A DNA stretch of 33,867 nucleotides from Terriglobia bacterium. Lineage in GTDB: Bacteria; Acidobacteriota; Terriglobia; Bryobacterales; Bryobacteraceae. The DNA lies in assembly GCA_025358575.1 (NCBI GenBank), contig JANYJA010000221.1, positions 1 to 33,867 on the forward strand. The letters are read 5' to 3'. Position 1 is the stretch's first letter; each line of letters opens with the position of its first letter. Under the pieces are notes generated by a model that was given only the letters and a program-made list of their open reading frames with translations, was not told the DNA's origin and made no database searches. This document shows, piece by piece, positions 4,801 through 31,322 of the stretch. The position numbers and the translations under genes are program-made.

Positions 4801-5550
4801 ATCGCGGACTTCCATGGAGCGACGGTTTCAATTCGGCGCGCTTACAGCAGCGGGTTCGCGTTCGATTTAAACTACACCTGGTCGCACTCCATCGACAACG
4901 GTTCAGCCGCGGAATCGGGAGCGGGCCAGCAAGGGGGCTCGATCCAGAACATCTTCGCGCCCGGCGAGTTCCGCGGTTCGTCCGACTTCGATATCCGGCA
5001 TAACATCAACGCCAACGTGCTTTACGCGCTGCCATTCGGCAAGGGCCAGCGATTCTTCGCGGACGTGCCGTCCTGGTTCGATCAAGTTATTGGCGGTTGG
5101 CAGGTTTCGAGCATCATGCGCTACCGCACGGGCCTGCCGACCGTGGTCAGCGGCGATCTCGCATGGAACACCAATTATTGGTTGAGCTCGCTGGCGATTG
5201 TGACCCAGCCGATTCATCCCAAAATCGGCCTCAATGAAAACGGCAACCCGAGCATCTTCCCGAAGACCAGCGCGGCGAATTCGTTTGCGGATGAATTCCC
5301 AGGGGCCACCGGCACGCGCGCCGCGCTCCGGCTCGCGCCTTTCGTCAATTTCGATATCGCCGTTGCGAAATCCTTCAAGCTTCCATTCGAAGGGCACCGG
5401 ATGCAATTCCGCGCCGAAGCGTTCAATGCATTCAACAACGTGAATTTCGTCAGCCCGAGCTTGTCGTTGCAGTCGCCGCTAACCTTCGGAGAATTTCGAG
5501 ACACCACGCCCCCGCGCGTGCTGCAATTTGCGCTACGTTATGAGTTCTGA
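1819..5550 (+). CDS. TonB-dependent receptor, Oar-like, with carboxypeptidase-regulatory-like domain
   Basis: Large outer-membrane receptor of 1243 residues. A signal peptide (about residues 1-22, cleavage near 'AAFPQS') is followed by a carboxypeptidase-regulatory-like beta-sandwich (about 27-110, 'LRGTVTDTQAAVIPGAIV'). Next come a TonB plug region (about 120-250) and a long beta-barrel ending in '...LRYEF', a C-terminal aromatic residue as needed for BAM insertion. ATG 1819 was chosen because AGGAGAA at 1807-1813 is spaced five bases from it; an adjacent TTG at 1816 is too close. The stop TGA (5548-5550) overlaps the ATG of ureD (5550-5552) by one base, so translation of ureD is probably coupled. 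This family is greatly expanded in Solibacter-type Acidobacteria and its substrates are mostly unknown. Linkage to urease suggests nickel, a nitrogen compound or a ligand bearing urea, but that is inference. Confidence 0.93.
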   Translation: MIFRPTTIFIASLMAATAAFPQSTTSLRGTVTDTQAAVIPGAIVTITNQETGATRKMPTSNAGEFQFAQLSPGTYKVSAENSGFSTVIQSGVKLLVNTPATLDLRMEVSTAGEMINVTSESPTINAVDASIGNAFTETQIRQLPLLTRNVVELLSLQPGVSPNGEVLGARRDQNNITLDGVDVNDNQNSGIATTSGGQGSNANDASYSPGFNAVLPIPLDSVQEFRVTVGGQGANEGRSAGGQVSLVTKSGTNQFHGSAYEFHRNTATAANTWFNNRSGVAREPLIRNQFGASLGGRIIKDRAFFFFNYEQRIDASGSAVSRTVPTDSLRNGNLVFQTTDGATHTLTPADIKQIDPLGIGVNSGVQSILKSYPTGNDPALGQDGGLNFTGLRFNAPNKRNDKAYVGKMDFRLDNTGKHTLGVRGTLAGDSRDQVLAQFPGQAPASRLLDNSRGIAALYTAVLTPNLVNAFNFGFTRLGLEQSGIAGTGLTFSALSSLQNWNARANGRRMPVTNIVDDVTWTRGKHTFITGINFRFVQNVRFSYDSSFPVYGFGSSELIGLGSDINGAVQDYIRAKTGDATLVLADPTSVTNGMGALLGPINDLTLTYQFLRDGSLVPQGVPQKRKFISNEYEGYVGDTWRVRRDLTLTYGLRYGNYRPPYEANGLQVSPNFGLDRYFAERNGLQAQGIPGNAMPHATLTYNLNGPLNHKPSWYGTDNNNFAPRLSFAYSPSDRGGWLGKMFGKAGVFRGGAAMVYDRFGSDLVTPFDQFGSVGVASKTNFPDSYNFTTSGRYNGSYPAPPTPPTGGFPYTPPDIASITGDFLGISPDLKAPYSYVLNASFARELPGKLTIEVGYVGRLSRKLLMQGDVYTPLEHFKDPISGQTWIQNATTTRNLFDKGLTTAGVKANPALVPNLPFVESMFPALKDFYFPGSASANYFYSVYGDFGGSFLDNLHASDRIPGYFNTPPGTCASRTGCYTFFSRQGSSMPTWMNAGIADFHGATVSIRRAYSSGFAFDLNYTWSHSIDNGSAAESGAGQQGGSIQNIFAPGEFRGSSDFDIRHNINANVLYALPFGKGQRFFADVPSWFDQVIGGWQVSSIMRYRTGLPTVVSGDLAWNTNYWLSSLAIVTQPIHPKIGLNENGNPSIFPKTSAANSFADEFPGATGTRAALRLAPFVNFDIAVAKSFKLPFEGHRMQFRAEAFNAFNNVNFVSPSLSLQSPLTFGEFRDTTPPRVLQFALRYEF

Positions 5551-6353
5551 TGAACCTGAAGCTGGGCTTCACGCCGGGGCGATTCCTGGTGCACGAGCAC
5601 CAGGCGCCCTGGAAAGTGGTGCGCGCCTTTCACTCGCCGGGCGGTGAATCGCTGGTGCATCTTCACAACGTTTCCGGCGGAATCTTGGGCGGCGACTCGC
5701 TGGCACTCACAATGGATGTCGGCGCCGCGGCGCAAGTGCAAGTGACTTCCACCAGCGCCACTCGGGTGTATCGCGCGCGCGATGGCGCGTTGCCGGCGCA
5801 GTTGCGCACGCATGTTACGGTGGCGGGCGGCGCGCTGCTGGAGTATCTGCCCGACCCCGTAATTCCATTCGCCGGCTCGCGTTTTGAGCAACGAACCTCC
5901 ATCACGCTCCATGAAAGCGCGGGCCTGTTCTGGTGGGAGACGATTTCATGCGGACGAGAAGCCGCGGGCGAGCGTTTTCAATTCGAGTCGCTCTTTTCAC
6001 ACACCGAAATCCGCTCGGGCCGGCAGCTAATCGCCGTGGAACACTGGCGTCTGGAACCAGGGCGCGGGTCGGCCTCGTCACTGGTGAGAATGGGCCCGTT
6101 CCTCTATTCGACCGTCTTCTATTTGTGCCATCCCAAAGGCGTGTCGCTGGAAGGCGCGCTGGTAAAAATGGCGCATGAACTTTCCACGGTGGAAACTCGC
6201 TGGGGCGCGTCCGCACTGGTGGCGAACGGCTGCGTGGTGCGCGGGCTCAGCATGCAGTCCCGTTTTCTCGCCGCGGGGCTAATCTCGTTTTGGTCCATGG
6301 CGAAAGAAACACTCTACGGACGCGAAGCGATTCTTCCGCGTAAAATGTACTGA
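5550..6353 (+). CDS. ureD: Urease accessory protein UreD (UreH)
   Basis: Scaffold chaperone that binds the urease apoenzyme and, with UreF and UreG, delivers nickel to the active site. The 267-residue product has the family hallmark 'HNVSGGILGGDSL' near residue 38 and the later 'LEYLPDPVIPFAGSRF' segment. Its ATG overlaps the receptor stop by one base, and its own stop TGA at 6351-6353 directly abuts the ATG of ureA. Its position first in the urease genes is the common bacterial order ureDABC. Length is normal for the family. Confidence 0.93.
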   Translation: MNLKLGFTPGRFLVHEHQAPWKVVRAFHSPGGESLVHLHNVSGGILGGDSLALTMDVGAAAQVQVTSTSATRVYRARDGALPAQLRTHVTVAGGALLEYLPDPVIPFAGSRFEQRTSITLHESAGLFWWETISCGREAAGERFQFESLFSHTEIRSGRQLIAVEHWRLEPGRGSASSLVRMGPFLYSTVFYLCHPKGVSLEGALVKMAHELSTVETRWGASALVANGCVVRGLSMQSRFLAAGLISFWSMAKETLYGREAILPRKMY

Positions 6354-6656
6354 ATGCATCTGACGCCGCGAGAGCAAGAGAAGCTGATGATTTATGTCGC
6401 CGCCGAAGTTGCGCGCAAGCGGCAGGGTCGCGGACTGAAATTAAACTACCCTGAATCCATCGCCATCATAACGGCCGAAATCTTGGAAGCTGCTCGCGAC
6501 GGCAAGACAGTCGCCGAGATCATGAGTTATGGAGCCACGCTTTTGCATCGCGCCGACGTAATGGATGGCGTCGCGGAGATGATTCACGAAGTGCAGGTTG
6601 AAGCTACGTTTCCGGATGGCACCAAACTGGTGACCGTTCACGACCCCGTGCAATGA
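6354..6656 (+). CDS. ureA: Urease subunit gamma
   Basis: Small structural subunit of the (alpha-beta-gamma)3 urease, which hydrolyses urea to ammonia and carbamate. The 100-residue protein begins '[20 protein letters not shown]' and contains '[21 protein letters not shown]', a near-universal UreA signature. The start immediately follows the ureD stop with no gap, and ureB begins nine bases after its stop. Length is exactly that of the separate gamma subunit, so there is no gamma-beta fusion as in Helicobacter. Confidence 0.96.
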
Positions 6657-6665
6657 GGCTAGACG

Positions 6666-6971
6666 ATGCATCCCGGTGAATACATTCTCGAAACAGCGGA
6701 CGTGATCGCAAACGAGGGCAGGCCAGTGGTGCGCGTCCTGGTGCGGCACTCGGGCGATCGTCCAGTACAAGTAGGCAGCCACTATCATTTCTTCGAGGTG
6801 AATCGCGCGCTGAATTTCGATCGCGAAAAAGCACGCGGCATGCGTCTGAATGCGGCGGCGGGAACTGCCGTGCGTTTTGAGCCCGGCGAGGAAAAAGAAG
6901 TCGCTCTCACCCCGTTTGCCGGCGCGAAGATGGTCTTCGGGCACAACGGATTGGTCAACGGCGCCGTATGA
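6666..6971 (+). CDS. ureB: Urease subunit beta
   Basis: Second structural subunit, 101 residues. It starts 'MHPGEYIL' and carries the conserved '[18 protein letters not shown]' motif and '[18 protein letters not shown]'. The stop overlaps the ureC start in an ATGA tetranucleotide at 6968-6971, indicating coupled translation so that beta and alpha subunits are made in step. Length matches free-standing beta subunits. Confidence 0.96.
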
Positions 6972-8683
6972 GCTTAAACATTCCGCGCCGCGTCTACGCC
7001 GATCTCTACGGGCCCACGACGGGCGACCGCGTTCGCCTGGCCGACACCGATCTGATCGTCGAAGTTGAGCGCGATTTCACCTCCTACGGCGACGAGATTA
7101 CGTTCGGTGGCGGCAAGGTGATTCGCGATGGCATGGGCCAGAGCAGCCGCTCACTCACTGCCGAAACGCTAGACCTCGTAATCACAAACGCCCTGATCGT
7201 CGACCACTGGGGCATCGTCAAGGGCGACATCGGCGTGAAGAACGGCCGCATCGTGAAAGTGGGCAAGGCCGGTAATCCGGATGTGATGCACGGCGTCGAT
7301 CCTGAGTTAATTGTCGGCGCGGCGACCGAAGTGATCGCCGGTGAAAATCTGATCGTCACTGCCGGCGGCATCGATAGTCACATTCACTTCATCTCGCCGC
7401 AGCAGGTTTACGAAGCGCTCTCCAACGGCATTACGACCATGATCGGCGGCGGCACCGGTCCCGCGACGGGAACCTGCGCCACCACGTGCACGCCCGGCGC
7501 ATGGAATCTGGCGCGCATGCTCGAAGCCGCTGAAGCGTGGCCCATGAATTTCGGCTTCCTAGGGAAGGGAAATGCTGCCACCACGGAGCCTCTCGCCGAA
7601 CAGATTCGCGCGGGCGCTTGCGGCCTGAAGCTGCATGAAGATTGGGGAACCACGCCAGCGGCCATTGACGCCTGTTTGCGCGCGTGCGACGAATTTGACG
7701 TGCAAGCCGCGATCCATACCGATACCATCAATGAAGCCGGTTTTGTGGAGGACACCATCGCGGCGATTGCCGGCCGCGCCATTCACACCTATCACACCGA
7801 GGGCGCGGGCGGCGGCCATGCGCCCGACATCATTCGTATTGCGTCCTTCCCCAACGTGCTTCCGTCGTCAACGAACCCGACGCGCCCCTTTACGGTCAAT
7901 ACCATTGCCGAGCATCTCGACATGCTCATGGTGTGCCACCATCTAAATCCGCTGGTGCCCGAGGATGTGGCGTTTGCCGAAAGCCGCATTCGCCCCGAGA
8001 CCATCGCCGCCGAAGATATTCTTCATGATCTGGGTGTGTTCAGCATGATTTCGAGCGATTCGCAAGCCATGGGCCGCATCGGCGAAGTGGTCACGCGCAC
8101 GTGGCAGACAGCTCACAAAATGAAAGTACAGCGCGGCGCGCTGCGTGAAGATTCGGCGCGAAACGACAATGCGCGCGTGAAGCGCTATGTTTCGAAGTAC
8201 ACAATCAACCCGGCAATCACGCATGGCATGAGCACCGAGATCGGCTCCATTGAAAAAGGAAAACTCGCGGATCTAGTCTTGTGGAAGCCCGCGTTTTTCG
8301 GAGTCAAACCAGAAATCATCCTCAAAGGCGGCTTCATCGCCTGGAGCGTGATGGGCGATGCGAATGCGTCCATCCCGACGCCGCAGCCCGTCTTGTATCG
8401 TCCGATGTTTGGTTCATTCGGAGGCGCGACTGCATCTACTTCATTGACCTTTGTATCGGGCGCCGCCGAAAATGAAGGTATCGGCGAGCGCTTGGGATTG
8501 AAGAAAAAATGCGTGCCAGTTCGTAATTGCCGCAACATCGGCAAAAAAGACATGATTCACAACAGCGCAATGCCGAAGATCGACGTGGACCCCGAAACTT
8601 ATGAAGTCCGCGCCGATGGCGAGTTGCTCGAGTGCGAGCCCGCGAAAGAACTTCCGTTAGCGCAAAGGTACTTTCTATTTTGA
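6968..8683 (+). CDS. ureC: Urease subunit alpha, catalytic
   Basis: Nickel metallohydrolase of 571 residues. All expected active-site residues are present by position: His138 and His140 (IDSHIHF), the carbamylated Lys221 (GLKLHEDW), His250 (AAIHTDT), His276 ([12 protein letters not shown]), the mobile-flap Cys323-His324 (MVCHHL) and Asp364 ([15 protein letters not shown]). This is consistent with a fully active enzyme once nickel is loaded. The stop at 8681-8683 overlaps the probable TTG start of ureG. Neighbouring genes on both sides are urease components, so the operon is coherent. Activation would need the accessory proteins discussed under ureG. Confidence 0.98.
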
Positions 8684-9366
8684 AGCGGGAATCGTCAAGA
8701 GCTTTTCGAATTGGCGTGGCCGGGCCGGTCGGCAGCGGCAAGACGGCGCTGGTGAACTCCCTCTGCGAGGCGCTGGGCTCCAAGTATAGTTTGGCCGTGG
8801 TGACCAACGACATCTACACCCGTGAGGATGCTGAATTCCTCATTGCCGCGGGCTCCATTGCGGCGGAACGCGTGCGCGGCGTCGAGACCGGCGGCTGTCC
8901 GCACGCCGCCATTCGCGAAGACGCCTCGATGAACCTCGAGGCGATCGCGGAATTGGAAGCGGCTTTTTCGGATCTGGAACTGGTTTTCGTGGAAAGCGGC
9001 GGCGATAATCTGGCGGCGTCTTTCAGTCCGGAGCTGGTGGACGTTTCCATCTACGTGATCGATGTCGCCGGCGGCGACAAAATTCCGCGCAAAGGCGGCC
9101 CGGGCATCATTCGCTCGGACCTGCTCTTGATCAATAAAATCGACCTTGCGCCCTATGTAGGCGCATCTCTCGACGTCATGCGCAAAGACGCCGTGCGCAT
9201 GCGCGGCACTCTGCGCCCATTTGTGTTTTCAAATCTCAAGAGCGGTGAAGGCCTCGGCGCAGTGCGTGATTGGGTTGAGAACCAGATGAAAGAGCCGCGC
9301 CGCGAATTGGTGACGTTGCAGTCCGCGCGTGTTTCACATACCCATCGTCATCACCACGGTCATTGA
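8680..9366 (+). CDS. ureG: Urease accessory GTPase UreG with His-rich tail
   Basis: SIMIBI-class GTPase that hands nickel to the UreD-bound apo-urease. The P-loop '[10 protein letters not shown]', the '[15 protein letters not shown]' motif and the nickel-binding '[15 protein letters not shown]' motif are all present. I favour the TTG at 8680, overlapping the ureC stop, because it gives the short N-terminus usual for the family; AAAGG lies 12 bases upstream. An alternative GTG at 8632 would add 16 residues inside ureC. The C-terminus is unusual, ending '[10 protein letters not shown]', six His in the last ten residues. Such metal-storage stretches are more often found on UreE or at the N-terminus of UreG. 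No ureE or ureF lies next to it. The gene overlaps the convergent hydrolase by seven bases. Confidence 0.93.
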
Positions 9367-24917: not shown

Positions 24918-25050
24918 AGCTGTCGCGCCAAAGTAACAATTGACGCGAATCGTGAAAACTTCCTACCGCCAACGATGACCCACATGCGTGAGCCCGCACA
25001 CGCGAAAACAGCACGCCGCCCCACTCCCGTCGTACATTAGGTAACGATCT

Positions 25051-26403
25051 ATGCTCACCGGCGAAATTCGCAGCCAAATCGACGCCATCTGGAACGCCTT
25101 CTGGACCGGCGGCATATCCAACCCCCTCGAAGTCATCGAGCAGATCACTTATCTCCTCTTCCTCCGCCGCCTCGATGAACTCCACACCCTCGAAGAGCTC
25201 AAGGCGGCCCGCCTGAATCAGCCGATCGACCGCCGAATCTTCCCGGAGGGCGAGGACGACCACCGCAATCCCCGCCCCTTCGATGATTACCGCTGGTCTC
25301 GCTCCAAGAATTTCGAAGCCCGCGACATGTTCGCGCTAATCGCGGAACGCATCTTCCCCTTCCTTCGCACGCTCGGCGGCGACGGTTCCGCTTACGCCCA
25401 GCACATGAAGGACGCGCGATTCACCATCCCCACCCCCGCGCTTCTCGCCAAAGTAGTCGACCTCCTCGACAAAGTCCCCATGCAGGACCGCGACACCAAG
25501 GGCGACGTCTACGAGTACATGCTCGGCAAGATCGCCACCGCCGGTCAGAACGGTCAGTTCCGCACCCCCCGCCATCTCATCCGTCTGATGGTGGAGCTCA
25601 CCGCGCCCCGGCCCACCGACCTCGTATGCGATCCGGCTTCCGGCACTTGCGGGTTCCTCGTCGCCGCCGGTGAATATATCCGCGAGCGCTATCCCGAAGC
25701 CCTTCGCGATCCCGAACTCCGCGAGCACTTCCACTCCCGCCTGTTTCATGGCTTCGATTTCGATAACACAATGCTACGCATCGGCAGCATGAATATGCTG
25801 CTGCACGGTGTCGAAGGACCCGATATCCGCTACAAGGATTCGCTCTCCCAGGAGCACAAAGGCGACGAGGACGCCTATACCCTGGTGCTCGCCAATCCGC
25901 CCTTCGCCGGTTCTCTCGATTACGAGAACTGCGCTAAAGATCTGCTCGAAATCGTCAAGACCAAGAAGACCGAGCTGTTGTTCCTCGCTTTGATGTTGCG
26001 GCTGTTGAAGCCCGGCGGACGCGCGGCGGTCATCGTTCCCGATGGTGTTTTATTCGGTTCAAGTAAGGCGCACCAGTCGCTGCGCACATTGCTGGTCGAA
26101 GGCCACAAACTCGACGCCGTCATCTCGCTGCCTTCCGGCGCATTCAAGCCATATGCCGGAGTCTCGACAGCCATTCTGATTTTCACCAAAACCAACTCCG
26201 GCGGTACGGACCACGTCTGGTTCTACGACATGCACGCCGACGGTTGGTCGCTCGATGACAAACGCCAGCCGCTGCTTTCGGAAGATAAGCTGGGGGTCGC
26301 TCCGTCGGCGCCTCTCACCGATGAGGAGCACGAAAAGAATAATCTCCCCGACGTAATCGCCCGCTGGCCGAAACGCGATAGGGAGGAGCGCGATCGTCCC
26401 TGA
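25051..26403 (+). CDS. hsdM: Type I restriction-modification N6-adenine methyltransferase HsdM, interrupted by UGA
   Basis: 450 residues ending at a TGA (26401-26403). The N-terminal helical HsdM domain (about 1-130) is followed by the methylase domain with SAM motif 'DPASGTCGFLVAAGEY' (about 190-205) and catalytic 'NPPF' (about 283-286). It methylates adenine at the site chosen by HsdS. Intact relatives are about 500-520 residues and end in a conserved C-terminal segment that packs on HsdS. Here that segment follows in the same frame after the stop. AGGT about ten bases upstream supports the ATG at 25051. As it stands, the protein lacks about 64 residues and may be impaired in complex assembly unless the UGA is read through or is a sequence error. 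Confidence 0.93.
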   Translation: MLTGEIRSQIDAIWNAFWTGGISNPLEVIEQITYLLFLRRLDELHTLEELKAARLNQPIDRRIFPEGEDDHRNPRPFDDYRWSRSKNFEARDMFALIAERIFPFLRTLGGDGSAYAQHMKDARFTIPTPALLAKVVDLLDKVPMQDRDTKGDVYEYMLGKIATAGQNGQFRTPRHLIRLMVELTAPRPTDLVCDPASGTCGFLVAAGEYIRERYPEALRDPELREHFHSRLFHGFDFDNTMLRIGSMNMLLHGVEGPDIRYKDSLSQEHKGDEDAYTLVLANPPFAGSLDYENCAKDLLEIVKTKKTELLFLALMLRLLKPGGRAAVIVPDGVLFGSSKAHQSLRTLLVEGHKLDAVISLPSGAFKPYAGVSTAILIFTKTNSGGTDHVWFYDMHADGWSLDDKRQPLLSEDKLGVAPSAPLTDEEHEKNNLPDVIARWPKRDREERDRP

Positions 26404-26595
26404 ACGGCGCAGAGTTTTTCAATTTCAAAAGCGGACATCGCGGCGACAGGCTACGATCTCAGCCTCAATCGCTATAAGGAGGTGATTCACGAGGAAGTGG
26501 ACCACGTGCCTCCGCAACAGATTCTTGCTGAGTTGAATGCGATTGAAGCAGAAATTCAGGAAGGGCTTCGAGAGTTGGAGGCGATGCTCGGATGA
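26404..26595 (+). pseudogene. hsdM: HsdM C-terminal segment beyond the in-frame UGA
   Basis: In the same frame as hsdM, codons after the stop read 'TAQSFSISKADIAATGYDLS' and 'LNRYKEVIHEEVDHVPPQQI', then an acidic helix, ending at TGA 26593-26595. 'GYDLSLNRYKE' is a standard HsdM C-terminal motif. The stop overlaps the hsdS ATG (26592-26594) as ATGA, the usual junction. No base is gained or lost, so a single substitution, for example CGA to TGA, explains the split. The reconstructed protein would be 514 residues, normal for HsdM. Confidence 0.88.
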
Positions 26596-27818
26596 AAAAC
26601 TGCCCTCGCACCGTGCCCCTGAACTTACTTGTTCAGTTCGTTGGCGGCGGAACCCCCGCGAAATCACAACCAGAATACTTTCGAGGCAACATACCCTGGG
26701 TGACTCCCAAGGACATGAAGGAAGGCGAAATTTGGACAGCACAAGATAAGATCACACCGGAGGCTGTCAAAGACAGTGCGGCTCGTTTGATTCCCGAAAA
26801 TTGCGTTTTATTGGTCGTTCGCTCAGGAGTACTCAAGCATTCGCTTCCGGTTGCCATCAATCGAGTTACGGTCGCCATCAATCAGGACTTAAAGGCGTTG
26901 CTGTGTTCACCCGAGATATTGCCGGAATATCTTTTCCACTATCTGCGCGCGTCAGCGCCAAGAATCCTCGACAGCGTTCGGGGTACCACAGCAGACAACA
27001 TCTCCGTCGATATTCTTAGATCCTGCGCGGTTCCACTCCCGCCCCTCGACCAACAACGCCGCATCGCCGCAATCTTGGACAAGGCCGACTCCCTGCGCGC
27101 CAAACGCCGCGCCGCCATCGCCAAGCTCGACTCTCTGGCCCAGTCCATCTTCCTCGACATGTTCGGCGACCCAGTCACCAACTCTAAGGGCTGGCCGGAT
27201 TCCGGAGCACTCGGAGGTGTCTCAGACATCGTCTCTGGGATAACCAAGGGCCGTCCTTTGCCAATCGGGCCCGTTAGGGAGGTCTCGTACCTTGCCGTTT
27301 CGAACGTCCAAGATCAAGCGCTCAATCTTAGCGTCATAAAGACAATCGTTGCATCAGAAGGGGAAATCTCGCGCTACCGGCTATGTCAACGAGACCTGCT
27401 TTTGACCGAAGGAGGTGACCCAGACAAACTTGGGCGTGGCGCCCTCTGGGATGGATCAATCTCAGACTGTATTCACCAGAACCACGTTTTTCGAGTGCGC
27501 GTCTCTGACCCGGCGATCAACCCTACATACCTTTCCTGGCTCGTTGCAAGCCGGAGGGGGAAAACCTACTTTCTGCGTTCAGCAAAGCAAACTACGGGTA
27601 TCGCGTCGATCAACATGACGCAGCTAAAAGGCTTTCCCGTTTTGTTTCCGCCGATCGTGCTTCAGCAAGACTTCGAGAAGATCGTAACCAAAGTTAACGC
27701 GGAGTCTGAGAGGTCGAAAAATTCCCTACGCGTCCTCGACGCCCTCTTCGCCTCCCTCCAGCACCGCGCCTTCCAAGGAGATCTCGAGTCAAGCGCACTC
27801 ACCGCCGCAAATGTCTAA
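26592..27818 (+). CDS. hsdS: Type I restriction-modification specificity subunit HsdS
   Basis: 408 residues with the two-part architecture of HsdS. Target recognition domain 1 (about 1-145, 'GGGTPAKSQPEYFRGNIPWV') is followed by a conserved helical repeat ('PLPPLDQQRRIAAILDKADS', about 150-200). Target recognition domain 2 (about 205-340) is followed by a second helical repeat ending 'LFASLQHRAFQGDL'. It decides which bipartite DNA sequence the complex methylates and cuts. The ATG overlaps the end of the HsdM tail. TRD segments are visibly less GC-rich than the flanking genes, as expected for exchanged recognition domains. Confidence 0.93.
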   Translation: MKNCPRTVPLNLLVQFVGGGTPAKSQPEYFRGNIPWVTPKDMKEGEIWTAQDKITPEAVKDSAARLIPENCVLLVVRSGVLKHSLPVAINRVTVAINQDLKALLCSPEILPEYLFHYLRASAPRILDSVRGTTADNISVDILRSCAVPLPPLDQQRRIAAILDKADSLRAKRRAAIAKLDSLAQSIFLDMFGDPVTNSKGWPDSGALGGVSDIVSGITKGRPLPIGPVREVSYLAVSNVQDQALNLSVIKTIVASEGEISRYRLCQRDLLLTEGGDPDKLGRGALWDGSISDCIHQNHVFRVRVSDPAINPTYLSWLVASRRGKTYFLRSAKQTTGIASINMTQLKGFPVLFPPIVLQQDFEKIVTKVNAESERSKNSLRVLDALFASLQHRAFQGDLESSALTAANV

Positions 27819-30800
27819 CTTCGGCTTCCTCCAGCCCGAGTTCCCCGCCATCTACAACGCCGCCCAACGCGCGTCCGCCGCCGTCTACCCCGACCCTCGC
27901 GCCGCCTGTTTCTACGCCCGCCGCGCTCTTGAACTCGCCGTCTCTTGGGCTTTCAAACATGACCCCGCCCTGCGCCTCCCTTACCAGGACACTCTCAGCG
28001 CTCTCATCCATGAACCCACCTTCCGCGCGTCTGCCGGTGAAACCGTCTACGTCAAAGCGCAGCTCATCACGCGTCTCGGAAATCAAGCCGTCCACAGTCA
28101 GGCGCAAATCTCGACCGCTGACGCGCTCACCGCTGTTCGCGAATTTTTCCACGTCTCGTACTGGCTCGCCCACACTTACTCCCGCGCGGTTCGGCCCGCG
28201 TCCGCCCTCGTCTTCAATCCGCAGTTGCTGCCCCGCACCGCGCCCATTCCGCGCCAGACGCTCGAGCAACTGCAATCCCTTGAGGCCGGTTTGCGCGAGC
28301 GCGATGAAAAGCTCAGCGCCATCCTCGCGGATCGCAACGCCCTTGATGAGGAGCTGAAGCGGCTCCGCGCCGAGGTTGCGGAGGCGCGCCGCGCCGCGGA
28401 ATCGCGGCCCGATACCCACGATTACTCCGAAGCCGAAACGCGCGACACCTTCATCGATCTCCTTCTCCGCGAAGCCGGATGGCCACTCAACGAGCAGCGG
28501 GACCGCGAGTTCCCGGTCTCTGGAATGCCCAACGCCGAAGGCCATGGTTTCGTCGATTACGTCCTCTGGGGTGACGATGGCAAGCCCCTCGCACTCATCG
28601 AGGCCAAACGCACCAAACGTGACCCGCGAGTTGGCCAGCAGCAAGCCAAACTCTACGCCGATTGCCTCGACCAACAGTTTGGTCAGCGTCCCGTCATTTT
28701 CTACACCAACGGTTACGAGCATTGGCTGTGGGATGACGCGCAGTACCCCCCTCGATCCGTTCAGGGTTTTTTCAAGAAAGCGGAATTGGAGCTGATGATC
28801 CAGCGCCGGTCCACCCGTCTTTCGCTGGCCGGAGCCACCATCGATAGCGCCATCGTCGAACGCGCCTACCAAACTCGCGCCATTCGCCGCATCTGCGAAG
28901 CGTTCGAGAAGAACAGAGACCGCCGCGGCTTGCTGGTCATGGCCACCGGTGCCGGCAAAACCCGCACCGTCATCGCCCTGTGCGACGTTCTCATGCGCTG
29001 CAACTGGGCCAAGCGCATTCTCTTCCTTGCCGACCGCGTTGCCCTCGTCAACCAAGCCGTTAACGCCTTTAAACTTCACCTTCCCGCTGCTTCCCCCGTC
29101 AATCTGGTGACTGAAAAAAACACCGAAGGCCGCGTTTTCGTTTCCACCTACCCGACCATGATGGGGCTCATCGACGAGACCAATGCCGAGACTGGCGGCG
29201 GTCTGCGCCGCTTTGGCCCCGGGCACTTCGACCTGATTGTCATCGACGAAGCGCACCGCTCCATTTACCAGCGCTATGGAGCCATCTTCGATTACTTTGA
29301 TTCGCTGCTAGTGGGTTTGACGGCTACGCCGGTCGACGAAATCGACCGCAATACTTATAGGCTCTTCCATCTTGAGACAGGCGTCCCCACCGACGTATAC
29401 GGCATCGATGAAGCCGTTCGCGACGGCTATCTGGTCCCGCCCAAAGCCGTTTCCGTTCCCCTGCGGTTCCAGCGTGAAGGCATCGACTATAACGGCCTCT
29501 CCGATGAAGAAAAAGCCGCATGGGATGACCTGGAGTGGACCGAAGAGGGCGAGGTCCCGAACAGAGTGGAAGCCGAAGCCGTCAATAAATGGCTCTTCAA
29601 TATCGATACCGTCGATAAAGTCCTCCAGCACCTGATGACTCGCGGTCAGAAAGTCGCGAGCGGAGACAAAATCGGCAAAACCATTATCTTCGCCAAGAAC
29701 CAGGCCCACGCAAACTTCATTGAAGACCGTTTCAACCGAAACTATCCGCACTACAAAGGTTCGTTTGCGCGTACCATCACCTTCCAAACCGGATACGCAC
29801 AATCCCTCATCAACGCTTTTTCAAATTCGGTAAAACCTCCGCAAATTGCTATCTCGGTGGACATGCTCGATACCGGAATCGACGTGCCGGAGGTCCTGAA
29901 TCTCGTCTTTTTCAAGCTCGTGCGCTCGAAGACCAAGTTCTGGCAAATGCTTGGGCGCGGAACCCGGCTTTGCCCGGATGTATTTGGCCCGGGCACCCAT
30001 AAGAAGTTCTTTTACATCTTCGACTACTGCCAAAATCTGGAATATTTCAGTCAGAATCCTGAAGCTACAGAGGGCGCGGGATCGGAATCGTTATCGAAGC
30101 GCCTTTTCGTCGGTCGCCTTGAACTAATCGAGGAACTTGACCGGCGGTATGCGAGTAACGCGTCGGAACAGGAAAGGGCACTCCGTCAGTACACCGCTGG
30201 AGAGTTGCGTACCGAAGTCGCACAGATGAATCTCAATAACTTCATCGTGCGTCCCAAGCGCCGCTATGTGGAGCGCTACGCCGAGCCTGCGGCTTGGAAA
30301 ACGCTCAATCTCGAACACTACGCCGAATTGGCGGAGCACGTCGCCGGGCTCCCGACGGAAGCCGAAGATCCCGACATCGAAGCCTGTCAGTTCGATTACT
30401 TGATGCTCCGGCTCCAACTTGCTCTGCTGCGTGCCGAACCTGCATTCACGCGCCTCCGCGAGACCGTCCAGGGCATTGCTCAATTATTTTCCGAAAAGGA
30501 AAGCATCCCCATGGTGCGCGAACAAATGGAACTCATTCTGGAGGTGCTGACGGATGCGTTCTGGGAAGACGTTACCGCGCCCATCCTCGACGGCGTTCGC
30601 CGCCGCCTTCGCGCGCTCGTGAAGCTGATCGAGAAGACCAAACGCAAGCCGGTTTTCACGGATTTTGCGGACGAAATGGGCGAGGAAATAGAAATCGTGC
30701 TCCCTGGCATCGTTGCCGCGGGAGACTTCGAGCGCTTCCGCGAAAAGGCCCGCGCATTCCTGCGCAAACACGAAGATCATCCCGCCATCCGTAAGGTCCG

Positions 30801-31197
30801 CGAAAATGAGCGTCTCAACTCGGAAGACCTCCTCGCCTTGGAACGCCTTCTCCTCGAAGCGGGTATCGGGACGGCGGAAGACATTCGCCAAGCCCGCGAA
30901 GCCAGCCACGGCTTCGGGCTTTTCATACGATCTTTGGCGGGTATGGATCGGCAAGCCGCCACCAAAGCCTTTGAACACTTCCTTCAGGGTCGCCGCCTCA
31001 CTGCCAACCAGCACGAATTTGTCGAACTGGTTCTCAGCCACTTAACCGAACGCGGCTACGTCGATCCGGTGATCCTTTATGAATCCCCATTCACCGATCT
31101 GAGCGCTAGAGGAGTCGAGGGCCTCTTCGCTTCTGGCGAAGTCGTTCAAATCGTGGAGATCCTCGCCGATATTCGGCACCGAGCCCTTGCGGGCTAG
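27811..31197 (+). CDS. hsdR: Type I restriction endonuclease subunit HsdR with DUF4145 N-terminus
   Basis: 1128 residues; ATP-driven translocase and nuclease. An N-terminal DUF4145-like helical domain (about 1-125, 'FYARRALELAVSWAF') and a coiled coil (about 150-195) precede the HSDR_N nuclease with Asp in 'FVDYVLWGDDGK' and 'LIEAKRT' (about 247-268). The SF2 helicase follows with 'MATGAGKTRTVI' (about 376), 'IDEAHRS' (about 478), 'GLTATP' (about 502) and 'MLGRGTRL' (about 712), then an EcoEI-type C-terminal domain. All key residues are present. It overlaps hsdS by eight bases, so hsdM, hsdS and hsdR are one coupled operon. If HsdM fails, unmodified sites would be at risk, which raises the stakes of the UGA. 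Confidence 0.95.
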   Translation: MSNFGFLQPEFPAIYNAAQRASAAVYPDPRAACFYARRALELAVSWAFKHDPALRLPYQDTLSALIHEPTFRASAGETVYVKAQLITRLGNQAVHSQAQISTADALTAVREFFHVSYWLAHTYSRAVRPASALVFNPQLLPRTAPIPRQTLEQLQSLEAGLRERDEKLSAILADRNALDEELKRLRAEVAEARRAAESRPDTHDYSEAETRDTFIDLLLREAGWPLNEQRDREFPVSGMPNAEGHGFVDYVLWGDDGKPLALIEAKRTKRDPRVGQQQAKLYADCLDQQFGQRPVIFYTNGYEHWLWDDAQYPPRSVQGFFKKAELELMIQRRSTRLSLAGATIDSAIVERAYQTRAIRRICEAFEKNRDRRGLLVMATGAGKTRTVIALCDVLMRCNWAKRILFLADRVALVNQAVNAFKLHLPAASPVNLVTEKNTEGRVFVSTYPTMMGLIDETNAETGGGLRRFGPGHFDLIVIDEAHRSIYQRYGAIFDYFDSLLVGLTATPVDEIDRNTYRLFHLETGVPTDVYGIDEAVRDGYLVPPKAVSVPLRFQREGIDYNGLSDEEKAAWDDLEWTEEGEVPNRVEAEAVNKWLFNIDTVDKVLQHLMTRGQKVASGDKIGKTIIFAKNQAHANFIEDRFNRNYPHYKGSFARTITFQTGYAQSLINAFSNSVKPPQIAISVDMLDTGIDVPEVLNLVFFKLVRSKTKFWQMLGRGTRLCPDVFGPGTHKKFFYIFDYCQNLEYFSQNPEATEGAGSESLSKRLFVGRLELIEELDRRYASNASEQERALRQYTAGELRTEVAQMNLNNFIVRPKRRYVERYAEPAAWKTLNLEHYAELAEHVAGLPTEAEDPDIEACQFDYLMLRLQLALLRAEPAFTRLRETVQGIAQLFSEKESIPMVREQMELILEVLTDAFWEDVTAPILDGVRRRLRALVKLIEKTKRKPVFTDFADEMGEEIEIVLPGIVAAGDFERFREKARAFLRKHEDHPAIRKVRENERLNSEDLLALERLLLEAGIGTAEDIRQAREASHGFGLFIRSLAGMDRQAATKAFEHFLQGRRLTANQHEFVELVLSHLTERGYVDPVILYESPFTDLSARGVEGLFASGEVVQIVEILADIRHRALAG
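31182..31195 (+). terminator. Possible weak terminator at end of hsdR
   Basis: AGCCC, TTGC loop, GGGCT form a 5-bp hairpin that overlaps the hsdR stop codon and is followed by a loosely T-rich stretch (agttactttctt). Too weak to be certain of function. Confidence 0.25.
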
Positions 31198-31322
31198 TTA
31201 CTTTCTTCGGTCACGCCTCTCCCCCAAAAATCCCCCTAACCCCCTCAACCACTTACCACAATCCTCCCACGCCCCGCCTCCAGGGCCATGCTAAAAACTA
31301 AGTCAGAGGACACCAAAAAATC

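Follow-up and report, generated by a model that had tools for sequence, protein, structure and literature searches.

A premature in-frame UGA in hsdM of a Terriglobia type I restriction-modification operon, probably an ordinary nonsense mutation that silences the system

What becomes of a type I restriction-modification system when its methylase gene carries one internal stop codon is the question raised by an hsdM gene in a draft Terriglobia genome (4.77 Mb, 261 contigs), in which a single TGA separates the catalytic part of the protein from its C-terminus. The window, that is, the whole stretch of DNA analysed here, is the complete contig JANYJA010000221.1 (C13) of 33,867 nt, and the following features in it are concerned.

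25051..26403, forward strand: hsdM as terminated, 450 amino acids plus TGA, with HsdM_N and N6_Mtase domains, ending at the premature TGA
26401..26403, forward strand: the in-frame TGA, with Arg at the aligned position in 75 of 80 homologues (the best 80 of at least 568)
26404..26595, forward strand: HsdM C-terminal tail as in-frame continuation, 63 codons plus its own TGA
26592..27818, forward strand: hsdS, 408 amino acids, open frame, overlapping the tail stop as ATGA
27811..31197, forward strand: hsdR, 1128 amino acids, open frame, with nuclease, ATPase and EcoEI_R_C domains

The three genes are co-directional from 25051 to 31197 and their junctions overlap. The tail codons (26404-26592) include the motif GYDLSLNRYKE, and the TGA that closes them (26593-26595) overlaps the hsdS start codon ATG (26592-26594). 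The TGA at 26401-26403, the 63 open codons behind it, the motif and the ATGA junction had all been described in a sequence-only reading of this DNA and are confirmed, as is its statement that no indel is needed, since the same frame simply continues past the TGA; a frameshift as the cause is thus rejected. The HsdM_N and N6_Mtase domains were found in the window HsdM using Pfam and PADLOC profiles. HsdS has two recognition domains, the PADLOC specificity profile being matched over positions 8-392 of 392, while Pfam Methylase_S recognised the first domain only at the cut used. The nuclease and translocase of HsdR were identified by the PADLOC REase_I profile (9-1091 of 1107), Pfam domains and motifs. 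What sets this operon apart from an intact type I system is that the HsdS-binding tail of HsdM lies outside hsdM's own open frame because of the TGA at 26401. A Pfam search of the genome found this hsdM as its sole N6_Mtase-family match.

Some other features of the window were also recorded. The N-terminus of HsdR (27811-28143) contains a DUF4145-type domain at residues 20-110 (Pfam) before the nuclease region, which seems ordinary for such an HsdR, since the nearly full-length REase_I match spans this part. Antisense to the start of hsdR, there is a 485-aa open frame on the reverse strand (27799-29256) without a Pfam match, most likely a shadow frame such as high-GC coding DNA gives rise to. 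Farther upstream, a urease cluster, ureD-ureA-ureB-ureC-ureG, is located at 5550-9366 (Pfam); ureC overlaps the ureG frame, so that this contig has no ureE or ureF between the two.

Whether the 63 codons are a genuine HsdM C-terminus was decided by an alignment of homologues, a check proposed in the sequence-only reading. Among bacterial and archaeal genomes, a scan confirmed at least 568 homologues, and the best 80 of them, with 72-80% identity by best segment to the 450-residue HsdM part, were compared. All 80 align through the position of the window TGA and none has a stop there; the aligned codon encodes Arg in 75, Pro in two, His in one and Cys in one, with a gap in the remaining one. Counted from this codon, the gene ends 63-67 codons farther on in 77 of these best 80, compared with 64 in the window, and the other three (L057, L105 and L106) run off their contigs. 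None of the 77 uncut homologues ends naturally at residue 450, an ending which the sequence-only reading had named as one that would refute it. Moreover, the Pfam N6_Mtase match in the window genome crosses the stop (25486-26496, with one TGA within). The match across the stop and the alignment of every one of these 80 homologues through it indicate that the continuity of the tail is not due to chance and that the tail is real HsdM. A split like that of Type IB systems, in which HsdS carries the HsdM tail (an idea taken from the part of PMC3510504 available), was also rejected: hsdS begins after the tail and in another frame, and the match of the window HsdS to the 392-position profile begins at position 8 and extends as far as the profile does.

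As it is absent from the homologues, the stop is private to the window genome within the sequences compared. In the same taxonomic family, L143 (genome G235) has an intact hsdM with Arg at this position, and when 237 family genomes were searched at the DNA level, no near-identical hsdM copy turned up, the best other genome reaching 72%. A plasmid search returned 35 records, of which the 20 listed are hsdM relatives that match part of the query at 65.0-71.9% DNA identity; two of the 35 fall in the 80-90% identity band. Furthermore, none of the 34 listed matches from 26 of 101 genomes has a stop in the matched stretch, the query having ended before the site of the stop. In a class-wide survey of 399 genomes, 249 have an N6_Mtase match; among the 150 matches listed (counted by hand), two contain a stop, namely that of the window and, in a further genome of the class, G094:C65:116953-117948, which is interrupted by an in-frame TAG. 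This suggests that nonsense hsdM is uncommon per gene and is to be expected across many genomes. Two further irregular copies were observed: L108, from a Rokubacteria draft genome, has an in-frame TAG in the hsdM head where the window has Trp18, and L144 (G130:C146:11524-12839), from the same family as the window genome, is short of 218 nt relative to the window and could be another broken copy or a misjoin.

Considering these results, we assume that the stop is probably a private and recent nonsense mutation of the ordinary kind, a single-base change in hsdM that silences the whole type I system. Of the four options offered in the sequence-only reading, a nonsense mutation with the system switched off is thus the one that is best supported, a sequence error is the rival, and readthrough and a reversible switch have fallen back. 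In the proposed course of events, a single-base change would create the TGA in the hsdM of a standard hsdM-hsdS-hsdR operon, and the truncated HsdM would retain its N-terminal and catalytic domains and lose the tail, whose long helix packs on HsdS in relatives. The M2S assembly would then fail, HsdR would be left without the complex it needs, and modification and restriction would both be off; reduced translational coupling between hsdM and hsdS would be a second effect.

The structural comparison concerns the lost tail. The solved structure closest to an intact homologue (L031) by phmmer is 5ybb_A, and the alignment extends through the tail, the cut falling near residue 431 of 507 as we read it. 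Foldseek also places 5ybb_A first for this homologue, with a TM of 0.64 and a large rmsd of 15.2; the closest solved HsdM is a distant one, and both the alignment and the structure matches are loose. In the AlphaFold model of the homologue (mean pLDDT 78.9), residues 486-511 form a long C-terminal helix that lies in blocks of pLDDT 65-92. The protein in 5ybb is probably TTE-HsdM, with which it shares the length of 507. As reported in the part of PMC3047542 available, removal of 21, 30 or 40 C-terminal residues from TTE-HsdM abolishes co-purification of HsdS, and removal of 10 does not; the window truncation, at 63 residues, is longer than any of the failing deletions. The C-terminal tails of PacII join HsdS in a four-helix bundle, and assembly is completely disrupted once those of M1 and M2 are deleted, according to the accessible portion of PMC9613975, and the same effect of tail deletion is cited for EcoKI HsdM from Powell 2003 in a section of PMC6158711. 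By analogy, the M2S methylase should not form without the tail, although the catalytic part of HsdM may fold despite the truncation. Since HsdR requires the M-S complex, modification and restriction would be lost together, which would be harmless to the cell. In addition, hsdM and hsdS of EcoKI are translationally coupled, as described in the available text of PMC3510504; in the window, ribosomes would halt about 190 nt before the hsdS start, so that coupling would be weaker and HsdS may drop. A GGAGG lies ten bases 5' of the hsdS ATG and could permit independent starts.

Decay of the tail was assessed at those alignment columns where 90% or more of the other sequences share one residue, with 78 comparators (the 77 homologues and L143; L057, L105 and L106, which are cut by contig ends, and L144 were left out). 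In the tail, the window deviates at two of 26 conserved columns, and 15 of the 78 comparators deviate at two or more; in the head, it deviates at nine of 273, and 20 of the 78 deviate at nine or more. In mean agreement, it falls short of the median in the tail as well as in the head, with seven of the 78 comparators lower in the former and 11 in the latter. Thus, there is no clear sign of excess decay of the tail, which fits a recent mutation. A wrong base or continued use of the tail would fit this result as well, so that it does not separate them from a recent stop, and the open hsdS and hsdR frames would likewise fit a tail in use or a base error.

The strongest competitor, which we regard as unlikely while giving it real weight, is that the TGA is absent from the majority genome and arose as a base-call or consensus error, or as a minority variant chosen by the assembler. 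The genome is a draft in 261 contigs, and elsewhere the operon is open and the tail apparently undecayed, which fits such an error. The clean state of other genes counts on both sides: no stop occurs in any of the 55 ABC_tran and 14 Pkinase matches of the window genome, which speaks for an error, and the same 69 matches give no sign of a generally error-rich assembly. Against an error, furthermore, there is no long homopolymer at the TGA site, and a substitution rather than an indel accounts for the change.

Far less probable is that termination is leaky, with a few ribosomes passing the UGA and supplying enough full-length HsdM for a type I system needed at low dose. We give the same low probability to the extended form of this idea, in which trace readthrough feeds such a system and the short HsdM acts as a second, assembly-defective form that limits it. 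The undecayed tail would suit it, and among the stop codons of E. coli UGA leaks most according to the portion of PMC11126739 available, in which reporter means for UGA readthrough lie at 0.21-7.23%, depending on the condition, and a single position reaches about 80% at 18 C. Moreover, a Pro preceding the stop can stall termination in E. coli, as stated in the accessible part of PMC7246954, and the last codon of the window hsdM is Pro. Basal leakage together with stalling at Pro might yield some full-length HsdM. However, this Pro belongs to the family consensus (alignment A1, made from 29 of the 80 homologues), which argues that the stop context was not selected, and a stop kept at the site, as conserved programmed readthrough would require, occurs in none of the best 80 of at least 568 homologues. 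The RNA 3' of the UGA folds no better than shuffled sequences (z of 0.13 for 50 nt and -0.49 for 120 nt), Rfam, searched over 26200-26800 with E up to 5, gave no match, and RF2 is present in the window genome. A literature search for natural hsdM readthrough, covering lists of papers and a part of PMC4444293, found no case. The suggestion in the sequence-only reading that readthrough gives two HsdM forms thus obtains no positive evidence from homologues, RNA folding or Rfam.

It is very improbable that initiation farther downstream supplies the tail as a separate peptide that complements the truncated HsdM. An in-frame GTG does occur at 26497, 14 nt after a GGAGG, but this spacing is long, the peptide would begin after GYDLS, and AAGGAGGTG merely represents the K-E-V codons of the family motif. 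Reading of the UGA as selenocysteine had to be considered, since the window genome has a tRNA-Sec with anticodon UCA and a SelB match (L173, G000:C44:4910-5977, and L164, G000:C187); the SelB match, in an open frame of 461 aa, is above the curated cut-off but covers just 1-339 of the 581 positions of the profile. This reading is scarcely credible: the homologues have Arg, with Cys in one of the best 80 of at least 568, and the 50 nt from the UGA give neither better folding than shuffles nor an Rfam match, the hairpin being judged by these two means and not by a dedicated bacterial SECIS model. Genome-wide reassignment of UGA is rejected by the presence of RF2 and of tRNA-Trp with anticodon CCA, by the sense anticodons of 40 of the 42 tRNA matches (ARAGORN; those on C134 and C160 were not called), and by the stop-free ABC_tran and Pkinase matches given above. 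A reversible off-switch, another proposal of the sequence-only reading, is also disfavoured: neither a tandem array nor an SSR lies at the stop, 25000-31300 contains no direct repeat of at least 16 nt, and the two imperfect inverted repeats in the operon (76% and 82% complementary, the former enclosing the stop) are unconvincing as a switch.

Returning to an ordinary nonsense mutation, if the stop is real, the type I methylase and its restriction barrier have probably been lost through one base. The sequence-only reading had held that a live HsdR beside a crippled HsdM would be dangerous. This is not supported: according to the available part of PMC8084154, DNA binding by HsdS and the activity of HsdR both require HsdM, and a group A Streptococcus strain with hsdM deleted had no growth defect. 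A broken HsdM in type I systems is therefore expected to silence restriction and not to unleash it, and the present case would be of greater importance only if full-length protein were still made. The same partial text reports spontaneous hsdM mutations in four of ten transformed derivatives, including a stop at position 380 of 526 in one. Furthermore, disruptions of hsd genes are termed common in a review (PMC3874165), and clinical isolates carry hsdM and hsdS loss-of-function alleles according to an excerpt of PMC7591249.

Compared with known systems, the group A Streptococcus mutants have in common with the window an hsdM inactivated by a stop, the difference being that they arose in laboratory-transformed strains. 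With the TTE-HsdM, PacII M1/M2 and EcoKI HsdM deletions, the window shares the loss of the C-terminal HsdS-binding region, but for those constructs failure of assembly was measured (by citation for EcoKI), while we infer the effect in the window. The operon as a whole resembles type I systems of the hsdM-hsdS-hsdR order in its gene order, its overlaps, the full-length profile matches of HsdS and HsdR and the Pfam EcoEI_R_C domain of HsdR; hsdM alone differs from the standard arrangement, being cut by the premature TGA.
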